Notes under the pieces: generated by a model
Told to the model about the DNA's origin: nothing
Seen by the model: the letters and a program-made list of their open reading frames with translations, nothing else
The model's database searches: none
Part shown: positions 6,741 to 49,684 of the stretch, one piece after another
Layout of the letters: the number at the start of each line of letters is the position of its first letter
Position numbering within the stretch: position 1 is the first letter of the stretch
Assembly (NCBI GenBank): GCA_032622095.1
Contig: CP136064.1
Span: 213,046,205 to 213,110,204 of the forward strand
Direction: 5' to 3'
Length of the DNA stretch: 64,000 nucleotides
DNA from: Siphonodentalium dalli
Taxonomy: Eukaryota > Mollusca > Scaphopoda > Gadilida > Siphonodentaliidae
Program-made: the position numbers and the translations under genes

Positions 6741-6890
6741 GTGAGCATTGTACCTAAATATCTTAATGACTATCAATGCATGTCACTTTCAGTTTTGATG
6801 AAATATTGTCATTATCTACTTATTTTTATTTGTTTGATTCAACAGTTCAGAACATCAAACGCGCACATATTTAACTCCTGTGTTGTGTAA

Positions 6891-6965
6891 CAATTTCCTT
6901 ACTAAATACTCATTGACGAATAATTCAGAGGGAATGTTCTGACGACAAGTTCAACAAACATACAT
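6891..6965 (+). mobile_element. Left terminus of the MITE that founded the array
   Basis: The sequence TTTCCTTACTAAATACTCATTGA at about 6894-6916 matches the left end of the solo element at 59642 (shared AAATACTCATTGA, then the GGAATGTTC region, then the hairpin). It also matches the reverse complement of the right end at 49668-49680 (AAGGAAAGGG). The preceding GTAA would be a decayed TTAA target. Termini are identified by comparison, not by function. Confidence 0.6.
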
Positions 6966-7689
6966 GGGCCATAAAGTCCGTTTGTTGAACTTGTTATCTG
7001 AACACTTCCCACCAATGAATAGTAATCCGTCTGCACGTGTCGCCTACTTGTATTTCATTAACAACTGTCCATATGAACTATATACCATTCCAATTCGCGC
7101 TTATATAATACGCTTATATAACTGGTGGGAGAATCCACCTCGTTGAGATAACAAGTTCAACAAATGGTAATGGACCGCATAGGCCGTTTGTTGAACTTAT
7201 TTTCTGAAAAATTCACCAATTTTTATACTTCTGCACTTGTATTTCCTGAACAACCCTCCAGATAAATTATAGACCGTTCCAATGAACTTATTTTCTGAAC
7301 ATTTTCCACCGATGAATAGGAATCCTTCTGCACTTTTATTTGTCGAACTACCATCCAGATATATTATAGACCATTCCAGTCAAATTATTTTCTGAACATT
7401 TTCTACCAATGAATAGGATTCCTCAATAATCATATACATTCCAATGTACGCTTATATAACTTATATAACTTAGGGAGAATCCATCCCGTTCAGATAATAA
7501 GTTCAACAAACGGTCATGGGCCGTTTGTTGAACTTATTTTCTGAACATTTTAATACTTCTGCTCTTGTAATTCCTGAACAACCCTCCAGATTAGTTATAG
7601 ACCATTCCAATGAACTTGAACATTTTCCACAAATGAATAGGAATCCTTCTGCTCTTTTATTGCCAAACAATCCTCCAGATAAATTATAG

Positions 7690-7835
7690 TTTGTCAGTCC
7701 ATCGACCACCCAACCGCCCCGGCATACGTGCCCCCCCCCCCCCCCACCTGTTATTCTAAGGTGTTTTAAGGCAAACTCATCCGAACTCATTGCAAAAAAA
7801 AAATTGAGTTGCTGGAAAAAGTTTGTTGAACTTAT
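7690..7835 (+). repeat. K module, partial founder-like copy
   Basis: Contains CCATCGACCACCCAACCGCC, a 15-18-nt C-run, then TATTCTAAGGTGTTTTAAGG and AATTGAGTTGC. It is a single internal repeat of the module found complete from 8402 on, at the diverged edge of the array. Confidence 0.7.
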
Positions 7836-8401
7836 TTTCTTAACATTTTTATACTTCTGCACTCGTATTTCCTGACCAACACACTAGATAAATTATAGAT
7901 CATTCCAATAAACTTATTTTCTGAACATTTCCACCAAATATTAGGAATCCTAATGCATGTTTATTTGTCGAACACCCCCCCCCCCCCCGATCAATTATAG
8001 ACCATTCCAATGAACTTATTTTCTGAACATTTTCCACCAACGAATAGGCATCCTTCTGCACTTATATTTGCCGAACAACCCTCCAGTTAAATTATAGACC
8101 ATTCCAATGAACTTATTTTCTGAACATTTTCGAGCAATGAAAAGGATTCCTACAGAATTATAAACATTCCAGTATTCCCTTATATAAATGGGGGTGGTTC
8201 CACCTCGTTCAGACAATAAGTTCAACAAACGGTCGTGTGCCGCATAGGCCGTTTGTTGAACTTATTTTCTGAACATATTTATACTTCTGCACTTGTATTT
8301 CCTGAACAACCCTCCAGATAAATTATAGACCATTTCAATGAACTTATTTTCTGAACATTTTACACCAATGAATATGATTACTTCTGCACTTTTATTTGCC
8401 G

Positions 8402-8905
8402 AACAAGCCAGGGTGTTCGAAAATACTTTCAGGCACGTATGCTGATTTTTTCCTTTCGACCATTGTTGGGACCCACCCACCCCCGCGTCCAAATGTTTTT
8501 CGTTTTCGTCAGTTTTTTTCCAACCATTTTTGGACACCCACCCTGTGAGTTGTGAAAAAAAATTGTTTGTTGGTCCCATCGACCACCCAACCACCCCGGC
8601 ATACGTGTCCGGAAAAAATCCCCCCACCTGTAATTCTAAGGTGTTTTAAACAAAACTCATCTGAATTCATTGCACACACAAAATTTGAGTTTCAGAAAAA
8701 AATATTAGTTGGTTCCATCGACCACACACCCACCCCAACATACGTGTCCGATAAAATTCCCCCACCTGTTATTCTAAGGTGTTTTAAGCTAAACTCATCT
8801 GAACTCATTGCATTTGAGTTGCGGAAAAATTGTTTGTTGGTTCCATCGACAACCCACCCACCCTGGCATTCGTGCCCGGAAAATTCCCCTGAACAACCCA
8901 GATAA
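8402..8905 (+). repeat. K module copy 1 (full length)
   Basis: The K module interrupts the 97-bp monomer pattern. It begins AAGCCAGGGTGTT, passes through a C-rich stretch ACCCACCCACCCCCGCG and CGTTTTCGTCAG, then has three internal repeats of about 130-150 bp. Each internal repeat carries CCATCGACCACCCACCC, CATACGTG, CCCCCACCTGT, TTCTAAGGTGTTTTAA and GAATTCATTGCA-like words. It ends AATTCCCCTGAACAACCCAG and rejoins a monomer. This copy shares the downstream TTATATGCCATTCC variant with the copy at 39995. No gene is supported; in-frame repeats on both strands explain the reading frames of up to 239 codons in other copies. Confidence 0.85.
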
Positions 8906-10191
8906 ATTATATGCCATTCCAATATCCCCTTATATAACTGGTGGGAGAATCCATTCAGTTCAGATAATTAGTTCAACAAACGGGCATGGGCCGCATAGAC
9001 CGTTTGTTGAACTTATATTCTGAATTTGTTTTAACTTCTGCACTCTTATTTCCAGACCAACCCTCCAGATAAATTATAGACCATTCCAATGAACTTATTT
9101 TCTGAACATATTCCATCAATGAATAGGAATCCTAATGCATGTTTATTTGCCGAACAACCCTCCAGATAAATTATAGACCATTCCAATGAACTTATTTTCT
9201 GAACATTTTTTATACTTCTGCAATCGTATTTCCTGACCAACACACTAGATAAATTATAGACCATTCCAATGAACTTATTTTCTGAACATTTCCACCAAAT
9301 AATAGGAATCCTAATGCATGTTTGTTTGCCGAACAACCCCCCCCCCCCCCCCGATAAATTATAGACCATTCCAATAAACTTATTTTCTGAACATTTTCCA
9401 CCAACGAATAGGAATCCTTCTGCACTTGTGTTTACCGAACAACCCTCCAGTTAAATTATAGACCATTCCAATTAACTTATTTTCTGAACATATTCCATCA
9501 ATGAATAGGATTCCTCCAGAATTATATACCATTCCAATATCCTCTTATATAACTAAGGGATGAATCCACCGCGTACAGACAATAAGTTCAACAAACGGTC
9601 ATGTGCCGCATAGGCCGTTTGTTGAACTTATTTTCTTAACATTTTTATACTTCTGCAATCGTATTTCCTGACCAACACACTAGATAAATTATAGACCATT
9701 TCAATGAACTTATTTTCTGAACATTTCCACCAAATAATAGGAATCCTAATGCATGTTTATTTGTCGAACACCCCCCCCCCCGATCAATTATAGACCATTC
9801 CAATGAACTTATATTCTGAACATTTTCCACCAACGAATAGGCATCCTTCTGCACTTGTATTTGCCGAACAACCCTCCAGTTAAATTATAGACCATTCCAA
9901 TGAACTTATTTTCTGAACATTTTCGAGCAATGAATAGGATTCCTCCAGAATTATAAACATTCCAGTATACCCTTATATAAATGGGGGTGAATCCACCTCG
10001 TTCAGACAATAAGTTCAACAAACGGTCGTATGCCGCATAGGCCGTTTGTTGAACTTATTTTCTGAACATTTTTATACTTCTGCACTTGTATTTCCTGAAC
10101 AACCCTCCAGATAAATTATAGACCATTTCAATGAACTTATTTTCTGAACATTTTCCACCAATGAATATGATTACTTCTGCACTTTTATTTG

Positions 10192-10690
10192 CCGAACAAG
10201 CCAGGGTGTTGGAAAATACTTTCAGGCACGTGTGCTGATTTTTTCCTTTCGACCATTGTTGGGACCCACCCACCCCCGCGTCCAAATGTTTTTCGTTTTC
10301 GTCAGTTTATTTTCCGACCATTTTTGGACACCCACCCTGTGATTTGTGAAAAAAATTGTTTGTTTGTCCCATCGACCACCCGCCCACCCCGGCATACGTG
10401 TCCGGAAAAAATCCCCCCACCTGTAATTCTAAGGTGTTTTAAACCAAACCCATCTGAATTCATTGCACACACAAAAATTGAGTTTCGGAAAAAAATATTA
10501 GTTGGTTCCATCGACCACCCACCCACCCCGACATACGTGCCCGATAAAATTCCCCCACCTGTTATTCTAAGGTGTTTTAAGCTAAATTCATCTGAACTCA
10601 TTGCATTTGAGTTGCGGAAAAATTGTTTGTTGGTTCCATCGACCACCCACCCTGGCATTCGTGCCCGGAAAATTCCCCTGAACAACCCAG
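10192..10690 (+). repeat. K module copy 2
   Basis: Full-length copy with a shortened CCACCCACCCTGG in the third internal repeat. It is nearly identical to copy 3, 2,667 bp downstream, so both belong to one tandem segmental duplication. Confidence 0.85.
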
Positions 10691-12858
10691 ATAAATTATA
10701 TACCATTCCAATATCCCCTTATATAACTGGTGGGAGAATCCATTCAGTTCAGACAATAAGTTCAACAAACGGTCATGGGCCGCATAGACCGTTTGTTGAA
10801 CTTATATTCTGAAATTGTTTTAACTTCTGCACTCTTATTTCCAGACCAACCCTCCAGATAAATTATAGACCATTCCAATGAACTTATTTTATGAACATAT
10901 TCCATCAATGAATAGGAATCCTAATGCATGTTTATTTGCCGAACAACCCTCCAGATAAATTATAGACCATTCCAATGAACTTATTTTCTGAACATTTTCA
11001 ACCAACGAATAGCAATCCTTCTGCACTTGTGTTTGCCGAACAACCCTCCAGTTAAATTATAGACCATTCCAATTAACTTATTTTCTGAACATATTCCATC
11101 AATGAATAGGATTCCTCCAGAATTATATACCATTCCAATATCCTCTTATATAACTAAGGGTGAATCCACCGCGTACAGACAATAAGTTCAACAAACGGTC
11201 ATGTGCCGCATAGGCCGTTTGTTGAACTTATTTTCTGAACATTTTTATACTCTGCACTCGTATTTCCTGACCAACACACTAGATAAATTATAGACCATTT
11301 CAATGAACTTATTTTCTGAACATTTCCACCAAATAATAGGAATCCTAATGCATGTTTATTTGCCGAACAACCCCCCCCCACCCCAGATAAATTATAGACC
11401 ATTCCAATGAACTTATTTTCTGAACATTTTCCACCAACGAATAGGAATCCTTCTGCACTTGTGTTTACCGAACAACCCTCCAGTTAAATTATAGACCATT
11501 CCAATTAACTTATTTTCTGAACATATTCCATCAATGAATAGGATTCCTCCAGAATTATATACCGTTCCAATATCCTCTTATATAACTAAGGGGTGAATCC
11601 ACCGCGTACAGACAATAAGTTCAACAAACGGTCATGTGCCGCATAGGCCGTTTGTTGAACTTATTTTCTGAACATTTTTATACTTCTGCACTCTTATTTC
11701 CTAACCAACCCACCAGATAAATTATAGATAATTCCAATGAAATTATTTTCTGAACATTTTCCCACCAAATAATAGGAATCCTAATGCATGTTTATTTGCC
11801 GAACAACCCCCCCCCCCAGATAAATTATAGACCATTCCAATGAACTTATTTTCTGAACATTTTCCACCAACGAATAGGAATCCTTCTGCACTTGTGTTTA
11901 CCGAACAACCCTCCAGTTAAATTATAGACCATTCCAATGAACTTATTTTCTGAACATTTCCACCAAATAATAGGAATCCTAATGCATGTTTGTTTGCCGA
12001 ACAACCCCCCCCCCCGATAAATTATAGACCATTCCAATAAACTTATTTTCTGAACATTTTCCACCAACGAATAGGAATCCTTCTGCACTTGTGTTTACCG
12101 AACAACCCTCCAGTTAAATTATAGACCATTCCAATTAACTTATTTTCTGAACATATTCCATCAATGAATAGGATTCCTCCAGAATTATATACCATTCCAA
12201 TATCCTCTTATATAACTAAGGGATAATCCACCGCGTACAGACAATAAGTTCAACAAACGGTCATGTGCCGCATAGGCCGTTTTGTTGAACTTATTTTCTT
12301 AACATTTTTATACTTCTGCAATCGTATTTCCTGACCAACACACTAGATAAATTATAGACCATTTCAATGAACTTATTTTCTGAACATTTCCACCAAATAA
12401 TAGGAATCCTAATGCATGTTTATTTGTCGAACACCCCCCCCCCCCCCCGATCAATTATAGACCATTCCAATGAACTTATATTCTGAACATTTTCCACCAA
12501 CGAATAGGCATCCTTCTGCACTTGTATTTGCCGAACAACCCTCCAGTTAAATTATAGACCATTCCAATGAACTTATTTTCTGAACATTTTCGAGCAATGA
12601 ATAGGATTCCTCCAGAATTATAAACATTCCAGTATACCCTTATATAAATGGGGGTGAATCCACCTCGTTCAGACAATAAGTTCAACAAACGGTCGTATGC
12701 CGCATAGGCCGTTTGTTGAACTTATTTTCTGAACATTTTTATACTTCTGCACTTGTATTTCCTGAACAACCCTCCAGATAAATTATAGACCATTTCAATG
12801 AACTTATTTTCTGAACATTTTCCACCAATGAATATGATTACTTCTGCACTTTTATTTG

Positions 12859-13355
12859 CCGAACAAGCCAGGGTGTTGGAAAATACTTTCAGGCACGTGT
12901 GCTGATTTTTTCCTTTCGACCATTGTTGGGACCCACCCACCCCCGCGTCCAAATGTTTTTCGTTTTCGTCAGTTTATTTTCCGACCATTTTTGGACACCC
13001 ACCCTGTGATTTGTGAAAAAAATTGTTTGTTTGTCCCATCGACCACCCGCCCACCCCGGCATACGTGTCCGGAAAAAATCCCCCACCTGTAATTCTAAGG
13101 TGTTTTAAACCAAACCCATCTGAATTCATTGCACACACAAAAATTGAGTTTCGGAAAAAAATATTAGTTGGTTCCATCGACCACCCACCCACCCGACATA
13201 CGTGCCCGATAAAATTCCCCCACCTGTTATTCTAAGGTGTTTTAAGCTAAATTCATCTGAACTCATTGCATTTGAGTTGCGGAAAAATTGTTTGTTGGTT
13301 CCATCGACCACCCACCCTGGCATTCGTGCCCGGAAAATTCCCCTGAACAACCCAG
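12859..13355 (+). repeat. K module copy 3
   Basis: Full-length copy, the duplicate of copy 2. Small differences are confined to C-run lengths (AAATCCCCCACC against six C in copy 2; CCCACCCGACATA against CCCACCCCGACATA). Confidence 0.85.
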
Positions 13356-16300
13356 ATAAATTATATACCATTCCAATATCCCCTTATATAACTGGTGGGA
13401 GAATCCATTCAGTTCAGACAATAAGTTCAACAAACGGTCATGGGCCGCATAGACCGTTTGTTGAACTTATATTCTGAAATTGTTTTAACTTCTGCACTCT
13501 TATTTCCAGACCAACCCTCCAGATAAATTATAGACCATTCCAATGAACTTATTTTATGAACATATTCCATCAATGAATAGGAATCCTAATGCATGTTTAT
13601 TTGCCGAACAACCCTCCAGATAAATTATAGACCATTCCAATGAACTTATTTTCTGAACATTTTCAACCAACGAATAGCAATCCTTCTGCACTTGTGTTTG
13701 CCGAACAACCCTCCAGTTAAATTATAGACCATTCCAATTAACTTATTTTCTGAACATATTCCATCAATGAATAGGATTCCTCCAGAATTATATACCATTC
13801 CAATATCCTCTTATATAACTAAGGGTGAATCCACCGCGTACAGACAATAAGTTCAACAAACGGTCATGTGCCGCATAGGCCGTTTGTTGAACTTATTTTC
13901 TGAACATTTTTATACTTCTGCACTCGTATTTCCTGACCAACACACTAGATAAATTATAGACCATTTCAATGAACTTATTTTCTGAACATTTCCACCAAAT
14001 AATAGGAATCCTAATGCATGTTTATTTGCCGAACAACCCCCCCCCCCACCCCAGATAAATTATAGACCATTCCAATGAACTTATTTTCTGAACATTTTCC
14101 ACCAACGAATAGGAATCCTTCTGCACTTGTGTTTACCGAACAACCCTCCAGTTAAATTATAGACCATTCCAATTAACTTATTTTCTGAACATATTCCATC
14201 AATGAATAGGATTCCTCCAGAATTATATACCGTTCCAATATCCTCTTATATAACTAAGGGGTGAATCCACCGCGTACAGACAATAAGTTCAACAAACGGT
14301 CATGTGCCGCATAGGCCGTTTGTTGAACTTATTTTCTGAACATTTTTATACTTCTGCACTCTTATTTCCTAACCAACCCACCAGATAAATTATAGATAAT
14401 TCCAATGAAATTATTTTCTGAACATTTTCCACCAAATAATAGGAATCCTAATGCATGTTTATTTGCCGAACAACCCCCCCCCCCCCCCCCAGATAAATTA
14501 TAGACCATTCCAATGAACTTATTTTCTGAACATTTTCCACCAACGAATAGGAATCCTTCTGCACTTGTGTTTACCGAACAACCCTCCAGTTAAATTATAG
14601 ACCATTCCAATGAACTTATTTTCTGAACATTTCCACCAAATAATAGGAATCCTAATGCATGTTTATTTGGCGAACAACCCCCCCCCCCCCGATCAATTAT
14701 AGACCATTCCAATGAACTTATTTTCTGAACATTTCCACCAAATAATAGGAATCCTAATGCATGTTTGTTTGCCGAACACCCCCCCCCCCCCCAGATAAAT
14801 TATAGACCATTCCAATAAACTTATTTTCTGAACATTTTCCACCAGCGAATAGGAATCCTTCTGCACTTGTGTTTACCGAACAACCCTCCAGTTAAATTAT
14901 AGACCATTCCAATTAACTTATTTTCTGAACATATTCCATCAATGAATAGGATTCCTCCAGAATTATATACCGTTCCAATATCCTATTATATAACTAAGGG
15001 GTGAATCCACCGCGTAATGACAATAAGTTCAACAAACAGTCATGTGCCGCATAGGCCGTTTGTTGAACTTATTTTCTGAACATTTTTATACTTCTGCACT
15101 CGTATTTCCTAACTAGATAAATTATAGACCATTCCAATAAACTTATTTTCTGAACATTTTCCACCAAATAATAGGAATCCTAATGCATGTTTATTTGCCG
15201 AACTACCCCCCCCCCCAGATAAATTATAGACCATTCCAATGAACTTATTTTCTGAACATTTTCCACCAACGAATAGGAATTCTTCTGCACTTGTGTTTGC
15301 CGAACAACCCTCCAGTTAAATTATAGACCATTCCAATTAACTTATTTTCTTAACATTTTTATACTTCTGCAATCGTATTTCCTGACCAACACACTAGATA
15401 AATTATAGACCATCCAATGAACTTATTTTCTGAACATTTCCACCAAATAATAGGAATCCTAATGCATGTTTGTTTGCCGAACAACCCCCCCCCCCCCCAG
15501 ATAAATTATAGACCATTCCAATAAACTTATTTTCTGAACATTTTCCACCAGCGAATAGGAATCCTTCTGCACTTGTGTTTACCGAACAACCCTCCAGTTA
15601 AATTATAGACCATTCCAATTAACTTATTTTCTGAACATATTCCATCAATGAATAGGATTCCTCCAGAATTATATACCATTCCAATGTCCTCTTATATAAC
15701 TAAGGGGTGAATCCACCGCGTACAGACAATAAGTTCAACAAACGGTCATGTGCCGCATAGGCCGTTTGTTGAACTTATTTTCTTAACATTTTTATACTTC
15801 TGCAATCGTATTTCCTGACCAACACACTAGATAAATTATAGATAATTCCAATGAACTTATTTTCTGAACATTTTCCACCAAATAATAGGAATCCTAATGC
15901 ATGTTTATTTGCCGAACTACCCCCCCCCCCCCGATAAATTATAGACCATTCCAATGAACTTATTTTCTGAACATTTTCCACCAACGAATAGGAATTCTTC
16001 TGCACTTGTGTTTGACAACCCCCCCCCCCCCCCAGATAAATTATAGACCATTCCAATAAACTTATTTTCTGAACATTTTCCACCAGCGAATAGGAATCCT
16101 TCTGCACTTGTGTTTACCGAACAACCCTCCAGTTAAATTATAGACCATTCCAATTAACTTATTTTCTGAACATATTCCATCAATGAATAGGATTCCTCCA
16201 GAATTATATACCGTTCCAATGTCCTCTTATATAACTAAGGGGTGAATCCACCGCGTACTGACAATAAGTTCAACAAACAGTCATGTGCCGCATAGGCCGT

Positions 16301-19300
16301 TTGTTGAACTTATTTTCTGAACATTTTCATACTTCTGCACTCGTATTTCCTAACTAGATAAATTATAGACCATTCCAATGAACTTATTTCCTGAACATTT
16401 TCCACCAAATAATAGGAATCCTAATGCATGTTTATTTGCCGAACTACCCCCCCCCCCCCCCCCAGATAAATTATAGACCATTCCAATGAACTTATTTTCT
16501 TAACATTTTTATACTTCTGCAATCGTATTTCCTGACCAACACACTAGATAAATTATAGACCATTCCAATGAACTTATTTTCTGAACATTTCCACCAAATA
16601 GGAATCCTAATGCATGTATGTTTGCCGAACAACCCCCCCCCCCCCCCCAGATAAATTATAGACCATTCCAATGAACTTATTTTCTGAACATTTTCCACCA
16701 GCGAATAGGAATCCTTCTGCACTTGTGTTTACCGAACAACCCTCCAGTTAAATTATAGACCATTCCAATTAACTTATTTTCTGAACATATTCCATCAATG
16801 AATAGGATTCCTCCAGAATTATATACCATTCCAATGTCCTCTTATATAACTAAGGGGTGAATCCACCGCGTACAGACAATAAGTTCAACAAACGGTCATG
16901 TGCCGCATAGGCCCTTTGTTGAACTTATTTTCTTAACATGTTTATACTTCTGCAATCGAATTTCCTGACCAACACACTAGATAAATTATAGACCATTCCA
17001 ATGAACTTATTTTCTGAACATTTCCACCAAATAATAGGAATCCTAATGCATGTTTATTTGTCGACCCCCCCCCCCCGATCAATTATAGACCATTCCAATG
17101 AACTTATATTCTGAACATTTTCCACCAACGAATAGGCATCCTTCTGCACTTGTATTTGCCGAACAACCCTCCAGTTAAATTATAGACCATTCCAATGAAC
17201 TTAATTTCTGAACATTTTCGAGCAATGAATAGGATTCCTCCAGAATTATAAACATTCCAGTATACCCTTATATAAATGGGGGTGAATCCACCTCGTTCAG
17301 ACAATAAGTTCAACAAACGGTCGTATGCCGCATAGGCCGTTTGTTGAACTTATTTTCTGAACATTTTCCACCAGCGAATAGGAATCCTTCTGCACTTGTG
17401 TTTACCGAACAACCCTCCAGTTAAATTATAGACCATTCCAATTAACTTATTTTCTGAACATATTCCATCAATGAATAGGATTCCTCCAGAATTATATACC
17501 ATTCCAATGTCCTCTTATATAACTAAGGGGTGAATCCACCGCGTACAGACAATAAGTTCAACAAACGGTCATGTGCCGCATAGGCCGTTTGTTGAACTTA
17601 TTTTCTTAACATTTTTATACTTCTGCAATCGTATTTCCTGACCAACACACTAGATAAATTATAGATAATTCCAATGAACTTATTTTCTGAACATTTTCCA
17701 CCAAATAATAGGAATCCTAATGCATGTTTATTTGCCGAACTACCCCCCCCCCCCCCCCCCGATAAATTATAGACCATTCCAATGAACTTATTTTCTGAAC
17801 ATTTTCCACCAACGAATAGGAATTCTTCTGCACTTGTGTTTGCCGAACAACCCTCCAGTTAAATTATAGACCATTCCAATGAACTTATTTTCTGAACATT
17901 TCCACCAAATAATAGGAATCCTAATGCATGTTTATTTGTCGAACAACCCCCCCCCCCCGATCAATTATAGACCATTCCAATGAACTTATTTTCTGAACAT
18001 TTCCACCAAATAATAGGAATCCTAATGCATGTTTGTTTGCCGAACAACCCCCCCCCCCCCCCCCAGATAAATTATAGACCATTCCAATAAACTTATTTTC
18101 TGAACATTTTCCACCAGCGAATAGGAATCCTTCTGCACTTGTGTTTACCGAACAACCCTCCAGTTAAATTATAGACCATTCCAATTAACTTATTTTCTGA
18201 ACATATTCCATCAATGAATAGGATTCCTCCAGAATTATATACCATTCCAATATCCTATTATATAACTAAGGGGTGAATCCACCGCGTAATGACAATAAGT
18301 TCAACAAACAGTCATGTGCCGCATAGGCCGTTTGTTGAACTTATTTTCTGAACATTTTTATACTTCTGCACTCGTATTTCCTAACTAGATAAATTATAGA
18401 CCATTCCAATGAACTTATTTTCTGAACATTTTCCACCAAATAATAGGAATCCTAATGCATGTTTATTTGCCGAACTACCCCCCCCCCCCCCAGATAAATT
18501 ATAGACCATTCCAATGAACTTATTTTCTTAACATTTTTATACTTCTGCAATCGTATTTCCTGACCAACACACTAGATAAATTATAGACCATTCCAATGAA
18601 CTTATTTTCTGAACATTTCCACCAAATAATAGGAATCCTAATGCATGTTTGTTTGCCGAACAACCCCCCCCCCCAGATAAATTATAGACCATTCCAATAA
18701 ACTTATTTTCTGAACATTTTCCACCAGCGAATAGGAATCCTTCTGCACTTGTGTTTACCGAACAACCCTCCAGTTAAATTATAGACCATTCCAATTAACT
18801 TATTTTCTGAACATATTCCATCAATGAATAGGATTCCTCCAGAATTATATACCGTTCCAATATCCTATTATATAACTAAGGGGTGAATCCACCGCGTACA
18901 GACAATAAGTTCAACAAACGGTCATGTGCCGCATAGGCCGTTTGTTGAACTTATTTTCTTAACATTTTTATACTTCTGCAATCGTATTTCCTGACCAACA
19001 CACTAGATAAATTATAGACCATTCCAATGAACTTATTTTCTGAACATTTCCACCAAATAATAGGAATCCTAATGCATGTTTATTTGTCGACCCCCCCCCC
19101 CCCGATCAATTATAGACCATTCCAATGAACTTATATTCTGAACATTTTCCACCAACGAATAGGCATCCTTCCGCACTTGTATTTGCCGAACAACCCTCCA
19201 GTTAAATTATAGACCATTCCAATGAACTTATTTTCTGAACATTTTCGAGCAATGAATAGGATTCCTCCAGAATTATAAACATTCCAGTATACCCTTATAT

Positions 19301-20557: not shown

Positions 20558-21058
20558 AACAAGCCAGGGTGTTGGAAAATACTTTCAGGCACGTGTGCTG
20601 ATTTTTTCCTTTCGACCATTGTTGGGACCCACCCACCCCCGCGTCCAAATGTTTTTCGTTTTCGTCAGTTTTTTTTTCCGACCATTTTTGGACACCCACC
20701 CTGTGATTTGTGAAAAAAATTGTTTGTTTGTCCCATCGACCACCCGCCCACCCCGGCATACGTGTCCGGAAAAAATCCCCCCACCTGTAATTCTAAGGTG
20801 TTTTAAACCAAACCCATCTGAATTCATTGCACACACAAAAATTGAGTTTCGGAAAAAAATATTAGTTGGTTCCATCGACCACCCACCCACCCCGACATAC
20901 GTGCCCGATAAAATTCCCCCACCTGTTATTGTAAGGTGTTTTAAGCTAAATTCATCTGAAACTCATTGCATTTGAGTTGCGGAAAAATTGTTTGTTGGTT
21001 CCATCGACCACCCACCCACCCTGGTATTCGTGCCCGGAAAAATCCCCTGAACAACCCA
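20558..21058 (+). repeat. K module copy 4
   Basis: Full-length copy. It shares TTATTGTAAGG (C to G) and CTGGTATTCGTG with copy 6 at 34918, marking the two as sister copies about 14.4 kb apart. It has a private extra A in GAAACTCATTG near 20959. Confidence 0.85.
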
Positions 21059-38159: not shown

Positions 38160-38620
38160 CTGATTTTTTCTTTTCGACCATTGTTGGGACCCACCCACCC
38201 CCGCGTCCAAATGTTTTTCGTTTTCGTCAGTTTTTTTTTCCGACCATTTTTGGACACCCACCCTGTGATTTGTGAAAAAAATTGTTTGTTTGTCCCATCG
38301 ACCACCCATCCACCCCGGCATACATGTCCGGAAAAAATCCCCCCACCTGTAATTTCTAAGGTGTTTTAAACAAAACTCATCTGAATTCATTGCACACACA
38401 AAAATTGAGTTTCGGAAAAAAATATTAGTTGGTTCCATCGACCACCCACCCACCCCGACATACGTGCCCGATTAAATTCCCCCACCTGTTATTCTAAGGT
38501 GTTTTAAGCTAAACTCATCTGAACTCATTGCATTTGAGTTGCGGAAAAATTGTTTGTTGGTTCCATCGAGAAACCCACCCACCCTGGCATTCGTGCCCGG
38601 AAAATTCCCACGAACCCAGA
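38160..38620 (+). repeat. K module copy 7, 5' truncated
   Basis: Starts abruptly inside the module at GATTTTTTCTTTTCGACC, so it lacks the AAGCCAGGGTGTT start. It has the CCATCGAGAAACCC variant in the third repeat, shared with copies 9, 10 and 11. Confidence 0.8.
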
Positions 38621-39994
38621 TAAATTATATACCATTCCAATATCCCCTTATATAACTGGTGGGAGAATCCATTCAGTTCAGACAATAAGTTCAACAAACG
38701 GTCATGGGCCGCATAGACCGTTTGTTGAACTTATATTCTGAATTTGTTTTAACTTCTGCACTCTTATTTCCAGACCAACCCTCCATATAAATTATAGACC
38801 ATTCCAATGAACTTATTTTCTGAACATATTCCATCAATGAATAGGAATCCTAATGCATGTTTATTTGCCGAACAACCCTCCAGATAAATTATAGACCATT
38901 CCAATGAACTTATTTTCTGAACATTTTTATACTTCTGCACTCGTATTATTTCCTAACCAACCCACCAGATAAATTATAGATAATTCCAATGAACTTATTT
39001 TCTGAACATTTTCCACCAAATAATAGGAATCCTAATGCATGTTTATTTGCCGAACTACCCCCCCCCCCCCCAGATAAATTATAGACCATTCCAATGAACT
39101 TATTTTCTGAACATTTTCCACCAACGAATAGGAATTCTTCTGCACTTGTGTTTGCCGAACAACCCTCCAGTTAAATTATAGACCATTCCAATTAACTTAT
39201 TTTCTGAACATATTCCATCAATGAATAGGATTCCTCCAGAATTATATACCATTCCAATATGCTCTTATATAACTAAGGGGTGAATCCACCGCGTACAGAC
39301 AATAAGTTCAACAAACGGTTATGTGCATTTTTATACTTCTGCAATCGTATTTCCTGACCAACACACTAGATAAATTATAGACCATTCCAATGAACTTATT
39401 TTCTGAACATTTCCACCAAATAATAGGAATCCTAATGCATGTTTATTTGTCGAACAACCTCCCCCCCCCCCCCCACCCGGATCAATTATAGACCATTCCA
39501 ATGAACTTATTTTCTGAACATTTTCCACCTACGAATAGGCATCCTTCTGCACTTGTATTTGCCGAACAAACCCTCCAGTTAAATTATAGACCATTCCAAT
39601 GAACTTATTTTCTGAACATATTCCATCAATGAATAGGATTCCTCCAGTATTATATACCATTCTAATATCACGTTATATAGCTGGGGTGATTCGGCCGAGT
39701 ATAGACAATAAGTTCAACAAACGGTCATGTGCCGCATAGGCCGTTTGTTGAACTTATTTTCTGAACATTTTTATACTTCTGCACTCGTATTTCATGACCA
39801 ACACACCAGATAAATTATAGAAAAATTCCAATAAACTTATTTTCTGAACACTTTCCACCAATGAATAGGAATCCTTCTGCACTTGTATTTCCTGAACAAC
39901 CCTCCAGATAAATTATAGACCATTCCAATGAACTTATTTTCTGAACATTTTCCACCAATGAATATGATTACTTCTGCACTTTTATTTGCCGAAC

Positions 39995-40498
39995 AAGCCA
40001 GGGTGTTGGAAAATACTTTCAGGCACGTATGCTGATTTTTTCCTTTCGACCATTGTTGGGATCCACCCACCCCCCGCGTCCAAATGTTTTTCGTTTTCGT
40101 CAGTTTTTTTCCGACCATTTTTGGACACCCACCCTGTGAGTTGTGAAAAAAATTGTTTGTTGGTCCCATCGACCACCCACCCACCCCGGCATACGTGTCC
40201 GGAAAAAAAACATCCCCCACCTGTAATTCTAAGGTGTTTTAAACAAAACTCATCTGAATTCATTGCACACAAAAAATTTAAGTTTCGGAAAAAAATATTA
40301 GTTGGTTCCATCGACCACCCACCCACCCCCGACATACGTGCCCGATAAAATTCCCCCACCTGTTATTCTAAGGTGTTTTAAGCTAAACTCATCTGAACTC
40401 ATTGCATTTGAGTTGCGGAAAAACTGTTTGTTGGTTCCATTGACCACCCACCCACCCTGGCATTCGTGCCCGGAAAATTCCCCTGAACAACCCAGATA
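39995..40498 (+). repeat. K module copy 8
   Basis: Full-length copy with a GGAAAAAAAACATCCC expansion. It shares TTATATGCCATTCC with copy 1. Confidence 0.85.
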
Positions 40499-41750
40499 AA
40501 TTATATGCCATTCCAATATCCCCTTATATAACTGGTGGGAGAATCCATTCAGTTCAGACAATAAGTTCAACAAACGGTCATGGGCCGCATAGACCGTTTG
40601 TTGAACTTATATTCTGAATTTGTTTTAACTTCTGCACTCTTATTTCCAGACCAACCCTCCAGATAAATTATAGACCATTCCAATGAACTTATTCCATCCA
40701 TGAATAGGAATCCTAATGCATGTTTATTTGCCGAACAACCCTCCAGATAAATTATAGACCATTCCAATGAACTTATTTTCTGAAAATTTTTTAACTTCTG
40801 CACTCGTATTTCCTAACCAACCCACCAGATAAATTATAGATAATTCCAATGAACTTATTTTCTGAACATTTTCCACCAAATAATAGGAATCCTAATGCAT
40901 GTTTATTTGCCGAACAACCCCCCCCCCCCGATAAATTATAGACCATTCCAATGAACTTATTTTCTGAACATTTTCCACCAACGAATAGGAATCCTTCTGC
41001 ACTTGTGTATACCGAACAACCCTCCAGTTAAATTATAGACCATTCCAATTAACTTATTTTCTGAACATATTCCATCAATGAATAGGATTCCTCCAGAATT
41101 ATATACCATTCCAATATCCTCTTATATAACTAAGGGGTGAATCCACCGCGTACAGACAATAAGTTCAACAAACGGTCATGTGCCGCATAGGCCGTTTGTT
41201 GAACTTATTTTCTGAACATTTTTATACTTCTGCACTCTTATTTCCTAACCAACCCACCAGATAAATTATAGATAATTCCTATGAAATTATTTTCTGAACA
41301 TTTTCCACCAAATAATAGGAATCCTAATGCATGTTTATTTGCCGAACAACCACCCCCCCCCCCAGATAAATTATAGACCATTCCAATGAACTTATTTTCT
41401 GAACATTTTCCACCAACGAATAGGAATCCTTCTGCACTTGTGTTTACCGAACAACCCTCCAGTTAAATTATAGACCATTCCAATTAACTTATTTTCTGAA
41501 CATATTCCATCAATGAATAGGATTCCTCCAGAATTATATACCATTCCAATATCCTATTATATAACTAAGGGGTGAATCCACCGCGTAATGACAATAAGTT
41601 CAACAAACAGTCATGTGCCGCATAGGCCGTTTGTTGAACTTATTTTCTGAACATTTTTATACTTCTGCACTCGTATTTCCTAACCAACCCACTAGATAAA
41701 TTATAGATAATTCCAATGAACTTATTTTCTGAACATTTTCCACCAAATAA

Positions 41751-42065
41751 TATTATTATTATTATTATATACATTTAAAAACGCATTATACAATAAAGTT
41801 TCAATGCGCTTTACACAAAGCGCGACAAAAATAACATTGAAATGTAAAATTTAAAAAGCATAGTAATAAGGTAAAGGAAGTTAAGATGATGACTAAGAAC
41901 TAGATTTAAACTTAACGATTAACTTGCGGGAAACATTGTCTAAAAAGTAAAGTTTTGAGATCGGTTTTGAAATCCTTCAATGTAGAACATCGTCGAACAG
42001 TTTGTGGCAGACCGTTCCATACCTGCGTAGCCAATTCCTGAAAACATTTTTTACCGTAATTTTTT
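41751..42065 (-). mobile_element. CR1/L2-like LINE 3' end inserted in the array
   Basis: A monomer breaks at CACCAAATAATA and resumes at ATAGGAATCCTAATG (about 42066). The inserted 315 bp reads on the minus strand as the end of a LINE ORF, then a 3' UTR with the self-complementary GCGCTTTGTGTAAAGCGC, then an (AAT)n tail at 41751-41767. A 5'-truncated body with a short-motif microsatellite tail and little or no target duplication is typical of CR1/L2-clade insertions. It is the only such insertion inside the 41 kb and is not copied in the neighbouring units. Confidence 0.85.
41912..42061 (-). pseudogene. LINE ORF C-terminus, 49 codons
   Basis: Open from the insertion edge to a TAA at 41914-41912. 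The reading includes ELATQVWNGLPQTVRR, then CSTLKDFKTDLKTLLF. The pattern WNxLPxxxRxxxSLxxFKxxLKTxLF is the conserved C-terminal end of CR1/L2-type and related LINE proteins, just after the RT domain. Everything upstream is missing (5' truncation at integration). The frame itself is intact. Confidence 0.8.
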
Positions 42066-42627
42066 ATAGGAATCCTAATGCATGTTTATTTGCCGAACTA
42101 CCCCCCCCCCCCCCCCCAGATAAATTATAGACCATTCCAATGAACTTATTTTCTGAACATTTTCCACCAACGAATAGGAATTCTTCTGCACTTGTGTTTG
42201 CCGAACAACCCTCCAGTTAAATTATAGACCATTCCCAATGAACTTATTTTCTGAACATTTCCACCAAATAATAGGAATCCTAATGCATGTTTATTTGTCG
42301 AACAACCCCCCCCCCCCCCGATCAATTATAGACCATTCCAATGAACTTATTTTCTGAACATTTCCACCAAATAATAGGAATCCTAATTCATGTTTGTTTG
42401 CCGAACAACCCCCCCCCCCCCAGATAAATAATAGACCATTCCAATAAACTTATTTTCTGAACATTTTCCACCAGCGAATAGGAATTCTTCTGCACTTGTA
42501 TTTGCCGAACAACCCTCCAGTTAAATTATAGACCATTCCAATGAACTTATTTTCTGAACATTTTCGAGCAATGAATAGGATTCCTCCAGAATTATAACAT
42601 TCCAGTATACCCTTATATAAATGGGGG

Positions 42628-43114
42628 GTTGTTGGAAAATACTTTCAGGCACGTGTGCTGATTTTTTCCTTTCGACCATTGTTGGGACCCACCCACCCCC
42701 GCGTCCAAATGTTTTTCGTTTTCGTCAGTTTTTTTTCCGACCATTTTTGGACACCCACCCTGTGATTTGTGAAAAAAAATGTTTGTTTGTCCCATCGACC
42801 ACCCACCCACCCCGGCATACATGTCCGGAAAAAATCCCCCCACCTGTAATTTCTAAGGTGTTTTAAACAAAACTCATCTGAATTCATTGCACACAAAAAT
42901 ATTGAGTTTCGGAAAAAAATATTAGTTGGTTCCATCGACCACCCACCCACCCCGACATACGTGCCCGATAAAATTCCCCCACCTGTTATTCTAAGGTGTT
43001 TTAAGCTAAACTCATCTGAACTCATTGCATTTGAGTTGCGGAAAAATTGTTTGTTGGTTCCATCGAGAAACCCACCCGCCCTGGCATTCGTGCCTGGAAA
43101 ATTCCCATGAACCC
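42628..43114 (+). repeat. K module copy 9
   Basis: Joined to the array at ATGGGGGGTTGTTGGAAAAT, so its first bases replace a hairpin-proximal monomer. It carries the GAGAAACCC and CCCATGAACCC variants of the copy 7/10/11 group. Confidence 0.8.
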
Positions 43115-44471
43115 AGATAAATTATATACCATTCCAATATCCCCTTATATAACTGGTGGGAGAATCCATTCAGTTCAGACAATAAGTTCAACAAACGGTC
43201 ATGGGCCGCATAGACCGTTTGTTGAACTTATATTCTGAATTTGTTTTAACTTCTGCACTCTTATTTCCAGACCAACCCTCCAGATAAATTATAGACCATT
43301 CCAATGAACTTATTTTCTGAACATATTCCATCAATGAATAGGAATCCTAATGCATGTTTATTTGCCGAACAACCCTCCAGATAAATTATAGACCATTCCA
43401 ATGAACATATTTTCTGAACATTTTTAAACTTCTGCACTCGTATTTCCTAACCAACCCACCAGATAAATTATAGATAATTCCAATGAACTTATTTTCTGAA
43501 CATTTTCCACCAAATAATAGGAATCCTAATGCATGTTTATTTGCCGAACAACCCACCCCCAGATAAATTATAGACCATTCCAATAAACTTATTTTCTGAA
43601 CATTTTCCACCAACGAATAGGAATCCTTCTGCACTTGTGTTTACCGAACAACCCTCCAGTTAAATTATAGACCATTCCAATTAACTTATTTTCTGAACAT
43701 ATTCCATCAATGAATAGGATTCCTCCAGAATTATATACCATTCCAATGTCCTCTTATATAACTAAGGGGTGAATCCACCGCGTACAGACAATAAGTTCAA
43801 CAAACGGTTATGTGCATTTTTATACTTCTGCAATCGTATTTCCTGACCAACACACTAGATAAATTATAGACCATTCCAATGAACTTATTTTCTGAACATT
43901 TCCACCAAATAATAGGAATCCTAATGCATGTTTATTTGTCGAACAACCCCCCCCCCCCCCGATCAATTATAGACCATTCCAATGAACTTATTTTCTGAAC
44001 ATTTTCCACCTACGAATAGGCATCCTTCTGCACTTGTATTTGCCGAACAACCCTCCAGTTAAATTATAGACCATTCCAATGAACTTATTTTCTGAACATA
44101 TTCCATCAATGAATAGGATTCCTTCAGTATTATATACCATTCTAATATCACGTTATATAGCTGGGGTGATTCGGCCGAGTATAGACAATAAGTTCAACAA
44201 ACGGTCATGTGCCGCATAGGCCGTTTGTGGAACTTATTTTCTGAACATTTTTATACTTCTGCACTCGTATTTCATGACCAACACACCAGATAAATTATAG
44301 AAAAATTCCAATAAACTTATTTTCTGAACACTTTCCACCAATGAATAGGAATCCTTCTGCACTTGTATTTCCTGAACAACCCTCCAGATAAATTATAGAC
44401 CATTCCAATGAACTTATTTTCTGAACATTTTCCACCAATGAATATGATTACTTCTGCACTTTTATTTGCCG

Positions 44472-44968
44472 AACAAGCCAGGGTGTTGGAAAATACTTTC
44501 AGGCACGTATGCTGATTTTTTCCTTTCGACCATTGTTGGGATCCACCCACCCCTGCGTCCAAATGTTTTTCGTTTTCGTCAGTTTTTTTCCGACCATTTT
44601 TGGACACCCACCCTGTGATTTGTGAAAAAAAAATTGTTTGTTTGTCCCATCGACCACCCACCCACCCCGGCATACGTGTCCGGAAAAAATCCCACCACCT
44701 GTAATTCTAAGGTGTTTTAAACAAAACTCATCTGAATTCATTGCACACAAAATAAGTTTCGGAAAAAAATATTAGTTGGTTCCATCGACCACCCACCCAC
44801 CCCGACATACGTGCCCGATAAAATTCCCCCACCTGTTATTCTAAGGTGTTTTAAGCTAAACTCATCTGAACTCATTGCATTTGAGTTGCGGAAAAATTGT
44901 TTGTTGGTTCCATCGAGAAACCCACCCACCCTGGCATTCGTGCCCGGAAAATTCCCATGAACCCAGAT
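44472..44968 (+). repeat. K module copy 10
   Basis: A full module with the GAGAAACCC variant. The A-rich stretch before the second internal repeat is shortened (CACACAAAATAAG). Confidence 0.85.
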
Positions 44969-45449
44969 AAATTATATACCATTCCAATATCCCCTTATAT
45001 AACTGGTGGGAGAATCCATTCAGTTCAGACAATAAGTTCAACAAACGGTCATGGGCCGCATAGACCGTTTGTTGAACTTATATTCTGAATTTGTTTTAAC
45101 TTCTGCACTCTTATTTCCAGACCAACCCTCCAGATAAATTATAGACCATTCCAATGAACTTATTTTCTGAACATTTTCCACCAACGAATAGGAATCCTTC
45201 TGCACTTGTGTTTACCGAACAACCCTCCAGTTAAATTATAGACCATTCCAATTAACTTATTTTCTGAACATATTCCATCAATGAATAGGATTCCTCCAGA
45301 ATTATATACCATTCCAATGTCCTCTTATATAACTAAGGGGTGAATCCACCGCGTACAGACAATAAGTTCAACAAACGGTCATGTGCCGCATAGGCCGTTT
45401 GTTGAACTTATTTGCTGAACATTTTTATACTTCTGCACTCGTATTTCCT

Positions 45450-45720
45450 GTAATTCTAAGGTGTTTTAAACAAAACTCATCTGAATTCATTGCACACAAA
45501 AAAATTGAGTTTCGGAAAAAAATATTAGTTGGTTCCACCGACCACCCACCCACCCCGACATACGTGCCCGATAAAATTCCCCCACCTGTTATTCTAAGGT
45601 GTTTTAAGCTAAACTCATCTGAACTCATTGCATTTGAGTTGCGGAAAAATTGTTTGTTGGTTCCATCGAGAAACCCACCCACCCTGGCATTCGTGCCCGG
45701 AAAATTCCCATGAACCCAGA
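45450..45720 (+). repeat. K module copy 11, 3' two thirds only
   Basis: Fused to a monomer at TATTTCCTG|TAATTCTAAGG (about 45446-45452) and lacking the first internal repeat start. The join falls at a shared CCTG, which suggests short-homology recombination. Confidence 0.8.
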
Positions 45721-48345
45721 TAAATTATATACCATTCCAATATCCCCTTATATAACTGGTGGGAGAATCCATTCAGTTCAGACAATAAGTTCAACAAACG
45801 GTCATGGGCCGCATAGACCGTTTGTTGAACTTATATTCTGAATTTGTTTTAACTTCTGCACTCTTATTTCCAGACCAACCCTCCAGATAAATTATAGACC
45901 ATTCCAATGAACTTATTTTCTGAACATATTCCATCAATGAATAGGAATCCTAATGCATGTTTATTTGCCGAACAACCCTCCAGATAAATTATAGACCATT
46001 CCAATGAACTTATTTTCTGAACATTTTTATACTTCTGCACTCGTATTTCCTAACCAACCAACCAGATAAATTATAGATAATTCCAATGAACTTATTTTCT
46101 GAACATTTTCCACCAAATAATAGGAATCCTAATGCATGTTTATTTGCCGAACAACCCACCCCCAGATAAATTATAGACATTCCAATGAACTTATTTTCTG
46201 AACATTTTCCACCAATGAATAGGAATCCTTCTGCACTTGTGTTTACCGAACAACCCTCCAGTTAAATTATAGACCATTCCAATTAACTTATTTTCTGAAC
46301 ATATTCCATCAATGAATAGGATTCCTCCAGAATTATATACCATTCCAATATCCTCTTATATAACTAAGGGGTGAATCCACCGCGTACAGACAATAAGTTC
46401 AACAAACGGTCATGTGCCGCATAGGCCGTTTGTTGAACTTATTTGCTGAACATTTTTATACTTCTGCACTCGTATTTCCTAACCAACCCACTAGATAAAT
46501 TATAGATAATTCCAATGAACTTATTTTCTGAACATTTTCCACCAAATAATAGGAATCCTAATGCATGTTTATTCGCCGAACTACCCCCCCCCCAGATAAA
46601 TTATAGACCATTCCAATGAACTTATTTTCTGAACATTTTCCACCAACGAATAGGAATTCTTCTGCACTTGTGTTTGCCGAACAACCCTCCAGTTAAATTA
46701 TAGACCATTCCAATTAACTTATTTTCTGAACATATTCCATCAATGAATAGGATTCCTCCAGAATTATATACCATTCCAATATCCTCTTATATAACTAAGG
46801 GGTGAATCCACCGCGTACAGACAATAAGTTCAACAAACGGTTATGAGCCGCATAGGCCGTTTGTTGAACTTATTTTCTTAACATTTTTATACTTCTGCAA
46901 TCGTATTTCCTGACCAACACACTAGATAAATTATAGACCATTCCAATGAACTTATTTTCTGAACATTTCCACCAAATAATAGGAATCCTAATGCATGTTT
47001 ATTTGTCGAACAAACCCCCCCCCCAGATCAATTATAGACCATTCCAATGAACTTATTTTCTGAACATTTTCCACCTACGAATAGGCATCCTTCTGCACTT
47101 GTATTTGCAGAACAACCCTCCAGTTAAATTATAGACCATTCCAATGAACTTATTTTCTGAACATATTCCATCAATGAATAGGATTCCTTCAGTATTATAT
47201 ACCATTCTAATATCACGTTATATAGCTGGGGTGATTCGGCCGAGTATAGACAATAAGTTCAACAAACGGTCATGTGCCGCATAGGCCGTTTGTTAAACTT
47301 ATTTTCTGAACATTTTTATACTTCTGCACTCGTATTTCATGACCAACACACCAGATAAATTATAGAAAATTCCAATAAACTCATTTTCTGAACACTTTCC
47401 ACCAATGAATAGGAATCCTTCTGCACTTGTATTTCACGAACAACCCTCCAGATAAATTATAGACCATTCCAATGAACTTATTTTCTGAACATATTCCATC
47501 AATGAATAGGATTCCTTCAGTATTATATACCATTCTAATATCACGTTATATAGCTGGGGTGATTCGGCCGAGTATAGACAATAAGTTCAACAAACGGTCA
47601 TGTGCCGCATAGGCCGTTTGTTGAACTTATTTTCTGAACATTTTTATACTTCTGCCCTCGTATTTCCTGACCAACCCTCCAGATAAATTATAGGCTATTC
47701 CAATGAACTTATTTTCTGAATATTTTCCACCATTGAATATGAATCCTTCTGCACTTGTATTTCATGAACAACCCTCCAGATAAATTATAGACCATTCCAA
47801 TGAACTTATTTTCTGATCATTTCCACCAATGAATAGGAATCCTTCTGCACTTATATTTGCTGAACAACCCTCCAGTTATATTATAGACCATTCCAGTGAA
47901 TTTTATTTTCGGAACATTTTCCACCAATGAATAGGATTTCTCCATAATTATATACATGCCAATGTTCGCTTATATAACCGGAGGGAGAATCCACCTCGTT
48001 CAGATAATAAGTTCGACAAACGGTCATGGGCCGCCTAGGCCGTTTGCTGAACTTATTTTCTGAACATTTTAATACATCTGCTCTTGTAATTCCCGAACAA
48101 CCCTCCAGATTAAGTATAGACCATTCCAATGAACTTGAATATTTTCCACCAATGAATAGGAATCCTTCTGCACTTTTGTTTGCCGAACAACCTTCCAGAT
48201 AAATTATTGACCATTCCAATGAACTGATGTTCTGATAATTTTCAACAAATGAATAGTAATCCTTTTACACTTGTGTTTGCCGAACAACCCTCAAGATATA
48301 TTATAGACCATTTTAATGTACTTATTTTCTGAACATTTTCTGAAT

Positions 48346-49325
48346 ATTCATTTTATCTTTGCACATTATAATTATATATGCCACTTCAGATGGTATGACC
48401 TGTCTTTGGCGTACACCGCATTCTAAATTAAGGTACGCACGTTAAGTGCGAAGTCATTTTTATTTTTGCATATTATATGCAACATCAGATGGCATGACCT
48501 GTCTTTGACGACAGCGCCTTCTATGTTTCCTTTATAGGTTACGCACGTACTCTAAGTGCCTGATTTTTAAGCTGTGGATAATGTATCCCGACCAATCCGC
48601 ATATTTAAACTTGTGGTAACATAGATCCACATGATGCGCCCGACACTAGCTAATCTGGATATTGAGGTTGAGCTAATGTTTCGAGTCTCTTTATCGTGTA
48701 CTCTCGTCAGGGGCTACGACATTAGATAATTCGGCATTGTATATATGCCTGCATGATGTTTACATGTGCATACGGAATTCATCAAGTCCACTCGGGTGAC
48801 ATGTGCTTCCAGGCATTGGTAGCGTCTAAACCCGTGTTCGCACTTAATGTGCAACATGTTTTGTTTTTTTTGCATATTGCATGCAATCTATAATATATAT
48901 ATGTTTTGTTTTTTATCGAAGGACATTTAACGCCGTAGGTGTGGGCGATTGAATTGAAATTTACCATGAATATATATTTCGGCTCTCTGAGTAACATGGT
49001 CTCGTCCGGATTCTGACCGACGTCGCCTTTTGACGATATGACGTCAAATCCGCATTACTGAACATAAACGACACGTTATATAACGCTCTTTAACTTAACC
49101 TGGCTTATCCGGACAAACGGAGCGAACGCTCTTTATCTATGCGAGGTCACATAACGAATAGAAATAGACGCGAACGCTCTTTATCTTCGGCCTTTTCGGG
49201 ACTAAGAACAACAAGTGCGATCTTTATAGTTTAGCTTATTTTACCTTATCGGCACGCTCTGCCAAGGGAAGCTTATCCCAATCTTCTCAAGAGACAAGAG
49301 ATGCCAGCAAATCGACTGAGTATAG
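48346..49325. other. Unrelated 1-kb block after the array, with a 108-bp tandem repeat
   Basis: Monomer sequence stops after TTTCTGAACATTTTC and MITE sequence restarts near 49335. Inside, 48360-48466 and 48467-48575 are two copies of a ~108-bp repeat (CAGATGG(T/C)ATGACCTGTC), with a third partial copy near 48835-48895. Two copies of GCGAACGCTCTTTATCT lie at about 49122-49185. The block is either an insertion into the array's right flank or ordinary flanking DNA. No coding motif was recognised. Confidence 0.6.
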
Positions 49326-49334
49326 ACTTATTGA

Positions 49335-49445
49335 CCATTGTTGACCATTCCAATGTACGCTTATATAACTGGTGTGAGAATCCATCTCATTCAGATAATA
49401 AGTTAAACAAATTGTCTTGGGCCGCATATGCCTTTTTGTTTAAAC
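49335..49445 (+). repeat. Diverged array-unit fragment
   Basis: Contains GACCATTCCAATGTACGC, TTATATAACTGG, GAATCCATCTCATTCAGA and a decayed hairpin (AATAAGTTAAACAAA...TTTTTGTTTAAACT). It is an older relative of the units in the main array. Confidence 0.8.
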
Positions 49446-49454
49446 TGATATGAT

Positions 49455-49680
49455 TTGAACCAGTGGTGCAGAGGGAATGTTCGGATGACAAGTTGAACAA
49501 ACAGCCATATGATGTATTTCACGTTTGTTGAACGTATTATCTTAGCATGCAGTTCCCACAAATGAATAGGAATCATTCTGCGCTTTTATTTCTTGAGCAA
49601 CCCTCCATATGAATAATAGACCATTCCAATGTACACGTTTATAGATAACTGGTGGGAGAATCCGTCCAGTAAGGAAAGGG
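49455..49680 (+). mobile_element. Diverged single MITE unit with right terminus
   Basis: Carries GCAGAGGGAATGTTC, a hairpin with mismatches (left arm at 49490), one 97-bp monomer equivalent, TAACTGGTGGGAGAATCC and the terminus AGTAAGGAAAGGG, followed by TTTA. The order is the same as in the solo copy at 59642. It may be the right end of the element that gave rise to the array, or an independent insertion with a lost left end. Confidence 0.65.
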
Positions 49681-49684
49681 TTTA

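Follow-up and report, generated by a model that had tools for sequence, protein, structure and literature searches.

A satellite array of 41.5 kb that probably grew inside a piggyBac-like MITE in the scaphopod Siphonodentalium dalli

Locus A is a tandem array of 41.5 kb as assembled (6,887-48,340) in the genome of the scaphopod mollusc Siphonodentalium dalli (GenBank assembly GCA_032622095.1; 2.23 Gb in nine contigs). It lies in a stretch of 64,000 nucleotides of contig CP136064.1 (C4:213046205-213110204), hereafter the window, to which all positions given without a contig refer. Its units are the interior of a miniature inverted-repeat transposable element (MITE), and the ends of that MITE stand at the two edges of the locus. 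The history that probably accounts for this arrangement is that one MITE inserted, its interior became tandem, the surrounding DNA (the carrier) was copied to other places, and the core of locus A was re-expanded between the old ends.

Array layout and edges of locus A

An initial annotation, made from the letters of the window alone, had described a 41-kb satellite in which a hairpin-plus-monomer interior was repeated between one pair of MITE termini. The array is real, with 74 hairpin-arm and 314 monomer motifs at ≤2 mismatches, but it stops near 48,340, and 48,341-49,330 is other DNA. The simple repeat did not hold up: there are instead about four monomers per hairpin, arranged in higher-order repeats with spacings of ~430 bp, 2.67 kb (near 2,665) and 4.6 kb (near 4,593), and a foreign 270-bp repeat is present ten times. 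The features of the window are as follows.

5460-6886, forward strand: carrier left flank, which also adjoins related arrays on other chromosomes.
6887-6966, forward strand: original MITE left end (GTAA CAATTTCCTTACTAAATACTCATTGACGA...), with the CAGAGGGAATG variant.
6967-48340, forward strand: tandem array in which 97-bp monomers and units with a hairpin form higher-order repeats; a homogeneous core lies between divergent edges at ~6,967-7,780 and 47,681-48,340.
7781-47680, forward strand: homogenised core (133 windows of 300 bp).
8430-8700, forward strand: first of 10 copies of the 270-bp repeat, which is dispersed elsewhere in the genome and co-amplified with the array.
Starts near 10223, 12890, 20586, 25179, 34947, 38160, 40020, 42646 and 44500: the other nine copies of the 270-bp repeat.
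48341-49330, strand not assigned: non-array interruption, largely common to loci B and X; its first ~170 bp are tandem (~102-bp period) in B.
49466-49683, forward strand: right-end unit, consisting of a partial left end with the CAGAGGGAATG variant, a hairpin, a monomer and the original right end ...AGTAAGGAAAGGG, then TTTA.
49684-50200, forward strand: carrier right flank adjoining the right end; homology to B goes on in pieces to ~55.6 kb.
53465-53683, strand not assigned: short array-like fragment in the carrier right flank.
59642-59895, forward strand: solo MITE of 254 bp, with TTAA on both sides, an 8-bp perfect terminal inverted repeat (TIR; CCCTCTCT/AGAGAGGG) and one hairpin.

The edges were compared with a MITE consensus made from 21 copies, namely the solo copy of the window and 20 further genome copies. 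The left end matches it at 6,888-6,926 (82% over 39 columns, E 8.8e-6) and the right end at 49,620-49,682, where the match reaches the TIR (E 4e-11). Between the two ends no further left-end match occurs at E ≤0.01, and the 30 other right-end matches found there at this threshold all end by position 48 of 62. After the array come about 1 kb of other DNA, a fragment, and the unit whose right end closes the locus at 49,683; for five 300-bp windows starting at 48,281-49,481 there is no intra-array match of ≥200 bp.

Both edges also carry the same variant. An edge-variant pattern of 34 places was built from the left end and the right-end unit of A, which match it by construction. Allowing no mismatch, it was found genome-wide at one place beyond the two edges of A, the left end of locus B, and with one mismatch at two places, the right edge of locus X and one non-carrier place on contig 9. 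The letters CAGAGGG are present in 7 of all 48 places at ≤2 mismatches to the pattern, all 7 of them at carrier loci. Two unrelated insertions are disfavoured because the edges of A have a common variant that is exact elsewhere only at the left end of B, and what the pattern supports is a single insertion that would have grown internally while retaining both original ends.

The MITE and its genome-wide family

The solo MITE was read directly and is as the initial annotation had it, with the layout TTAA + CCCTCTCT ... AGAGAGGG + TTAA, CCC...GGG ends and one hairpin, which is central and strong in the fold of the element. The consensus is 273 bp long including the TTAAs; it begins with CCCTTTCTATACTAAAT and ends with the exact reverse complement, a perfect TIR of 17 bp, of which the solo copy in the window retains 8 bp. 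MITEs of the piggyBac superfamily are characterised, in passages of one source, by TIRs of 12-19 bp and a CC[C/T]T terminal motif (PMC2872659), and both are present in the consensus. The TTAA target-site duplication is found at the solo copy and at least 6 of the 20 further copies (L001, L005, L009, L012, L013 and L019, with L012 and L013 near-identical to each other), and it is decayed at others of the 20. At ≤3 mismatches the left-end pattern occurs at 6,756 + 7,041 = 13,797 places genome-wide, and its reversed control at 0. Judged by target and terminal motif, the solo MITE belongs to a family that is large and piggyBac-like, in agreement with the initial annotation. A Kolobok-superfamily MITE was considered and rejected: passages on that group give an RR terminal sequence together with a TTAA target (PMC6004289), and the ends here are CCC...GGG.

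The piggyBac transposase domain DDE_Tnp_1_7 has 128 matches listed genome-wide, some elements being split in two pieces. Many of these matches sit in open frames of ~500-720 amino acids, and the superfamily may have been active recently in this genome. Twenty elements, each sampled on one side, yielded no cognate autonomous piggyBac (best TIR match 12-14 of 21 vs 12-15 in shuffles); TTAACCCTT is present in 3 of these 20. Other satellites from the MITE left end were seen at L073 (C1:37.04 Mb, ~67-bp units) and L029 (C1:31.70 Mb, 45-bp spacing), and L030-L032 are arrays rich in MITE left-end matches.

Sister loci with the same carrier

Sister loci were missing from the initial annotation. A search with the left end and the 327 bp preceding the array gave 217 first-look candidates, of which 40 were scored, so that all carrier counts are lower bounds. 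The carrier left flank is present at scattered places on six of the nine contigs (1, 2, 3, 4, 6 and 9). Sixteen left flanks were read at 15 loci including A, that is, at 14 sister loci, with more listed; C6:186.13 has two. The MITE left end is present in 13 of the 16, in 12 of them directly after the flank. Identity among the carrier flanks on the six contigs is ~70-92%. A stretch of about 0.25 Mb contains loci A, B and X, which have kilobases of right flank in common, and on the left ~2.4 kb is common to B and X; in A this is interrupted at 5,460 by an inverted-repeat element. Given the scatter of carrier loci over six of nine contigs, the idea of a satellite restricted to a single region of each chromosome, for example a centromere, was set aside.

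The inverted-repeat element is 4.3 kb long (1134-2407 plus 4160-5454), with two inverted arms of ~1.3 kb that are 77% alike, and ends just before the carrier left flank. Tandem repeats with 54-bp and 62-bp periods at 54969-55073 and 60348-60491 are by eye unrelated to the array.

The initial annotation had proposed a search for intermediate arrays with TTAA on both outer sides. Sister arrays run from ~4.5 to 36 kb; TTAA stands at the outer left of B, and among the 11 right edges read the right end is present at A and B only. The smaller array, ~4.5 kb at C1:144.42 Mb, was fetched throughout and stands in the same carrier context; the figure for the longest (~36 kb, C6:105.24-105.28) is measured edge to edge. 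C1:144.25 Mb, which is one of the carrier loci with listed junction matches, has the same scores as C1:144.42 and is known by search score only.

Several sister loci are rearranged. In L025:2278-5530 (C6:186.13 Mb) a flank with its left end and a short array gives way, within ~35 bp, to another flank with its left end and a long array, and by this arrangement the left part of the carrier is tandemly duplicated there. At L036:2568-3042 (C2:62.105 Mb) the left end of a sister carrier has turned into a minisatellite with 28-bp units, and the 4.5 kb fetched there yielded no match to the hairpin. In L095, L096 and L097 the carrier right flank is repeated at ~0.8-1.3-kb spacing, with a short inverted piece of left flank in each copy. 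A protein-coding carrier was provisionally set aside, given that most flank open reading frames are broken between copies and 0 of 10 reach the Pfam cut-off (best E 0.042); a few short ones remain intact across several carrier copies.

Tandem junctions and the hairpin

Two fixed junctions recur in the array. In one, the right part of the MITE joins the 5' base of the hairpin, which gives the long unit; in the other, the right part runs from ...CCATTCCAATG directly into the 3' hairpin arm (AACTTATT), which yields the 97-bp monomer. At ≤3 mismatches the hairpin-unit junction pattern occurs at 333 places, vs 13,797 left ends genome-wide. The 100 junction matches listed are all at carrier loci or in their neighbourhood, most of them within arrays and at least 6 in flanks, the farthest (C4:212863931) lying ~15 kb from the edge of the X array; among these 100 of 333 there is no junction at another MITE. 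Since the left end stands at 13 carrier flanks and the listed junctions occur only at or near carriers, tandemisation probably started within a single ancestral insertion and preceded the duplication of the carrier DNA.

Different MITE segments have become tandem at different loci: the 97/430-bp interior, ~67-bp units at C1:37.04 Mb, units with 45-bp spacing at C1:31.70 Mb and the 28-bp left end at C2:62.105 Mb. In the ~67-bp satellite (L073) the junction falls within the first hairpin arm; the main hairpin has no part in the 28-bp repeats of L036. Junctions were read for four unit types, and in three of these the break falls at the hairpin stem or within it. The hairpin may plausibly have a role in breakage. 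The wider proposal, that the MITE family is a general satellite generator owing to its hairpin, with replication fold-back driving tandemisation and the carrier dispersing the product, is doubtful.

Relative age of edges, core and passenger repeat

A phylogeny of units, which the initial annotation had proposed as a check, was built by maximum likelihood from 142 rows of 257 hairpin units, with 22 units from A and up to 8 per other locus; rows of <100 bases were excluded, as were matches that had <90 aligned bases or began away from the hairpin. Of the 29 solos, 24 make up one clade (100/91). The main array branch (97/88, 112 rows) comprises 110 of 112 array units together with 2 solos, and each of the 15 sampled array loci is represented in it; the right-end unit of A falls just outside this branch (96/84). 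The edge units of A at 7,488 and 47,998 cluster with two B units (99/89), and the remaining 20 sampled A units cluster together (94/76, not starred).

The same division is seen in an identity profile of 143 windows of 300 bp, 133 of them in the core, where a window counted as comparable if it had another intra-array match of ≥200 bp. In the core 131 of 133 windows were comparable, with a median identity of 99.0% to other parts of A and 85.3% to B, and 131 of 131 match A better than B. Of the comparable edge windows, by contrast, all 5 are closer to B than to A. Because core windows resemble A, edge windows resemble B, and the edge units group with B, loci A and B probably had the array before they separated, and the core of A would have expanded afterwards. 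The 41-kb size would then be a later, local step.

The passenger gives a further marker of order. A search with the 270-bp repeat returned 2,796 first-look candidates, of which 40 were scored. The 10 copies in A are 94-100% identical to the query copy, and 2 copies in B and 1 in X are 84-86% identical to it; at other carriers the repeat is not among the listed matches (best 40 of 2,796). The simplest account is that the passenger entered before A, B and X split and would then have multiplied with the core of A.

Proposed history and alternative explanations

In the history that we consider likely, a TTAA-inserting, piggyBac-like MITE would have landed once in an ancestral carrier, and its interior would have become tandem there through the two fixed junctions, by slippage or unequal exchange. 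The carrier, already bearing an array, would then have been copied to contigs 1, 2, 3, 4, 6 and 9; this order is inferred because the junction is shared and from the unit tree. In the contig-4 cluster, the 270-bp dispersed repeat would have entered the array before A, B and X separated. After the A/B split, the core of A would have re-expanded to 41.5 kb with its 10 passenger copies, most simply by unequal exchange, leaving the outermost units and both MITE ends as old, divergent edges. The idea of one insertion expanded internally, as put forward in the initial annotation, is supported by the edge variant, but tandemisation would predate carrier duplication and the growth to 41 kb would be local and later. 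The array behaves as a selfish tandem repeat, for which a host function is neither shown nor needed.

Several observations weigh against this history. At locus A the MITE termini are present at both edges, as initially annotated, but the outer tetramers are decayed to GTAA on the left and TTTA on the right and are not TTAA. The left end is absent at 3 of the 16 left flanks read (X at C4:212.91, C2:62.124 and C4:173.15) and lies ~0.4 kb beyond the flank at C3:189.31. The right end is retained at 2 of 11 right edges read (A and B), and at the other 9 the array units pass into the right flank without it; the 11 do not include the right edge at C3:189.3, and most long sister arrays were read at their edges. 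An array family elsewhere without MITE ends, which the initial annotation had named as evidence against its proposal, does therefore exist, but the flanks of those loci are the same, and because of this the absent ends are read here as erosion of one insertion. No empty carrier, that is, one without MITE-derived sequence, was seen among the flanks read from the 40 of 217 candidates scored, and the other 233 junction matches fall outside those listed. One non-carrier place, at C9:80.4 Mb, is a single base off the edge pattern. In the unit tree, the solo clade lacks 5 of the 29 solos, 2 of which sit within the array branch; two array units (C6:220 and C1:19) cluster with the 3 further solos, and only 28 of 131 inner branches are starred.

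Among the alternatives, an unlikely but credible one is that the carrier is an old, larger mobile element in which the MITE ends are internal landmarks, and that its transposition spread the satellite in place of host-DNA duplication. The recurrence of carrier flanks on six contigs would fit such an element, as would a homology to the B flank that starts near the same point in 4 loci (L021 ~1238-1254) and a ~50-bp inverted repeat on both sides of the array. An attempt to define the carrier ends gave only a possible left boundary. The homology of X to B extends further left (to L021 840), and neither terminal repeats nor a target-site duplication were identified for the carrier. The 10 flank frames scanned all stay below the Pfam cut-off, and the kilobases of right flank common to the closely spaced A, B and X look like segmental duplication. 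A larger element would in any case leave the MITE insertion in place and alter only the mode of spread.

Two separately inserted MITEs flanking a satellite, one supplying the left end (6,887) and the other the right end (49,683), are very unlikely; this is the other case that the initial annotation had named against itself. The right-end unit does lack a left terminus of its own and lies ~1 kb away from the array, but the array units themselves are MITE interior, both edges of A recur in B with the same flanks, and the variant common to both edges has its one other exact match at that sister locus. Also very unlikely is an assembly artefact with a wrong array length or falsely joined edges. 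Identity reaches 100% between several 300-bp windows, repeats of this kind are difficult to assemble, and the 41 kb is an assembled length, which also counts against the preferred history, but the window contains no N, other carrier arrays of ~4.5 to 36 kb (edge to edge) occur in the same assembly, and the edges are distinct sequence homologous to B.

Comparison with known systems

Locus A and its sisters seem to preserve, in one genome, the steps from a MITE to a large satellite: thousands of MITE ends, one tandemisation junction, sister arrays of ~4.5-36 kb, eroded ends, a passenger that gives an order, and old edges round a fresh core. The order of events is testable in such a system, including whether tandemisation comes before dispersal, by what means the edges avoid being homogenised and whether the breakpoints are set by hairpins.

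The miDNA4 MITE of Xenopus tropicalis was reportedly described by Scalvenzi and Pollet in 2014. In the passages available, miDNA4 is a MITE with an internal satellite of variable copy number, from which a path is drawn through longer internal arrays and decayed ends to a classical satellite (PMC12628747, PMC9659126). It resembles locus A in its internal satellite and differs in that reviews place it in Tc1/mariner. Xmix/Xstir of Xenopus (T2-MITE, Kolobok) is described in MITE, tandem-array and composite MITE-plus-array forms (PMC6004289, PMC12628747), and there, as here, an internal segment of a TTAA-target MITE has given rise to a large tandem family. Xmix has AGGRR ends, whereas those here are CCC...GGG, and the passages on Xmix/Xstir contain neither carrier duplication nor edge stratigraphy. 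The array unit of locus A is homologous to the MITE interior, as in satellites of the Xstir/miDNA4 kind, and a composite form with MITE ends around the array is seen at A and B.

Other systems have features in common with locus A. CMITE elements of Acropora corals, with TTAA and CCCTTT ends and linked to piggyBac, lie in tandem arrays (PMC2872659); there full-sized MITEs are repeated, in contrast to the interior alone with one pair of ends. In Tetris/TIR-220 of Drosophila virilis, longer arrays arose, as here, from short tandem repeats in the interior of a non-autonomous element (repeats 87% alike inside Tetris, 94% in the others; PMC4079207), but Tetris is a Foldback element with the repeats in its TIRs. 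In Crassostrea gigas, satellite-like arrays were likewise dispersed with a carrier, which in that case is a Helentron (PMC7492417). In the literature covered, mostly titles and abstracts, no description was found of tens of kilobases lying between a single pair of piggyBac-type MITE ends. The initial annotation's phrase, an unusually direct record of a transposon becoming a satellite, is fair, although the process from MITE to satellite is already in print. The conversion of a MITE interior into a satellite is known from Xmix/Xstir and miDNA4, and locus A is an unusually complete new case of it.

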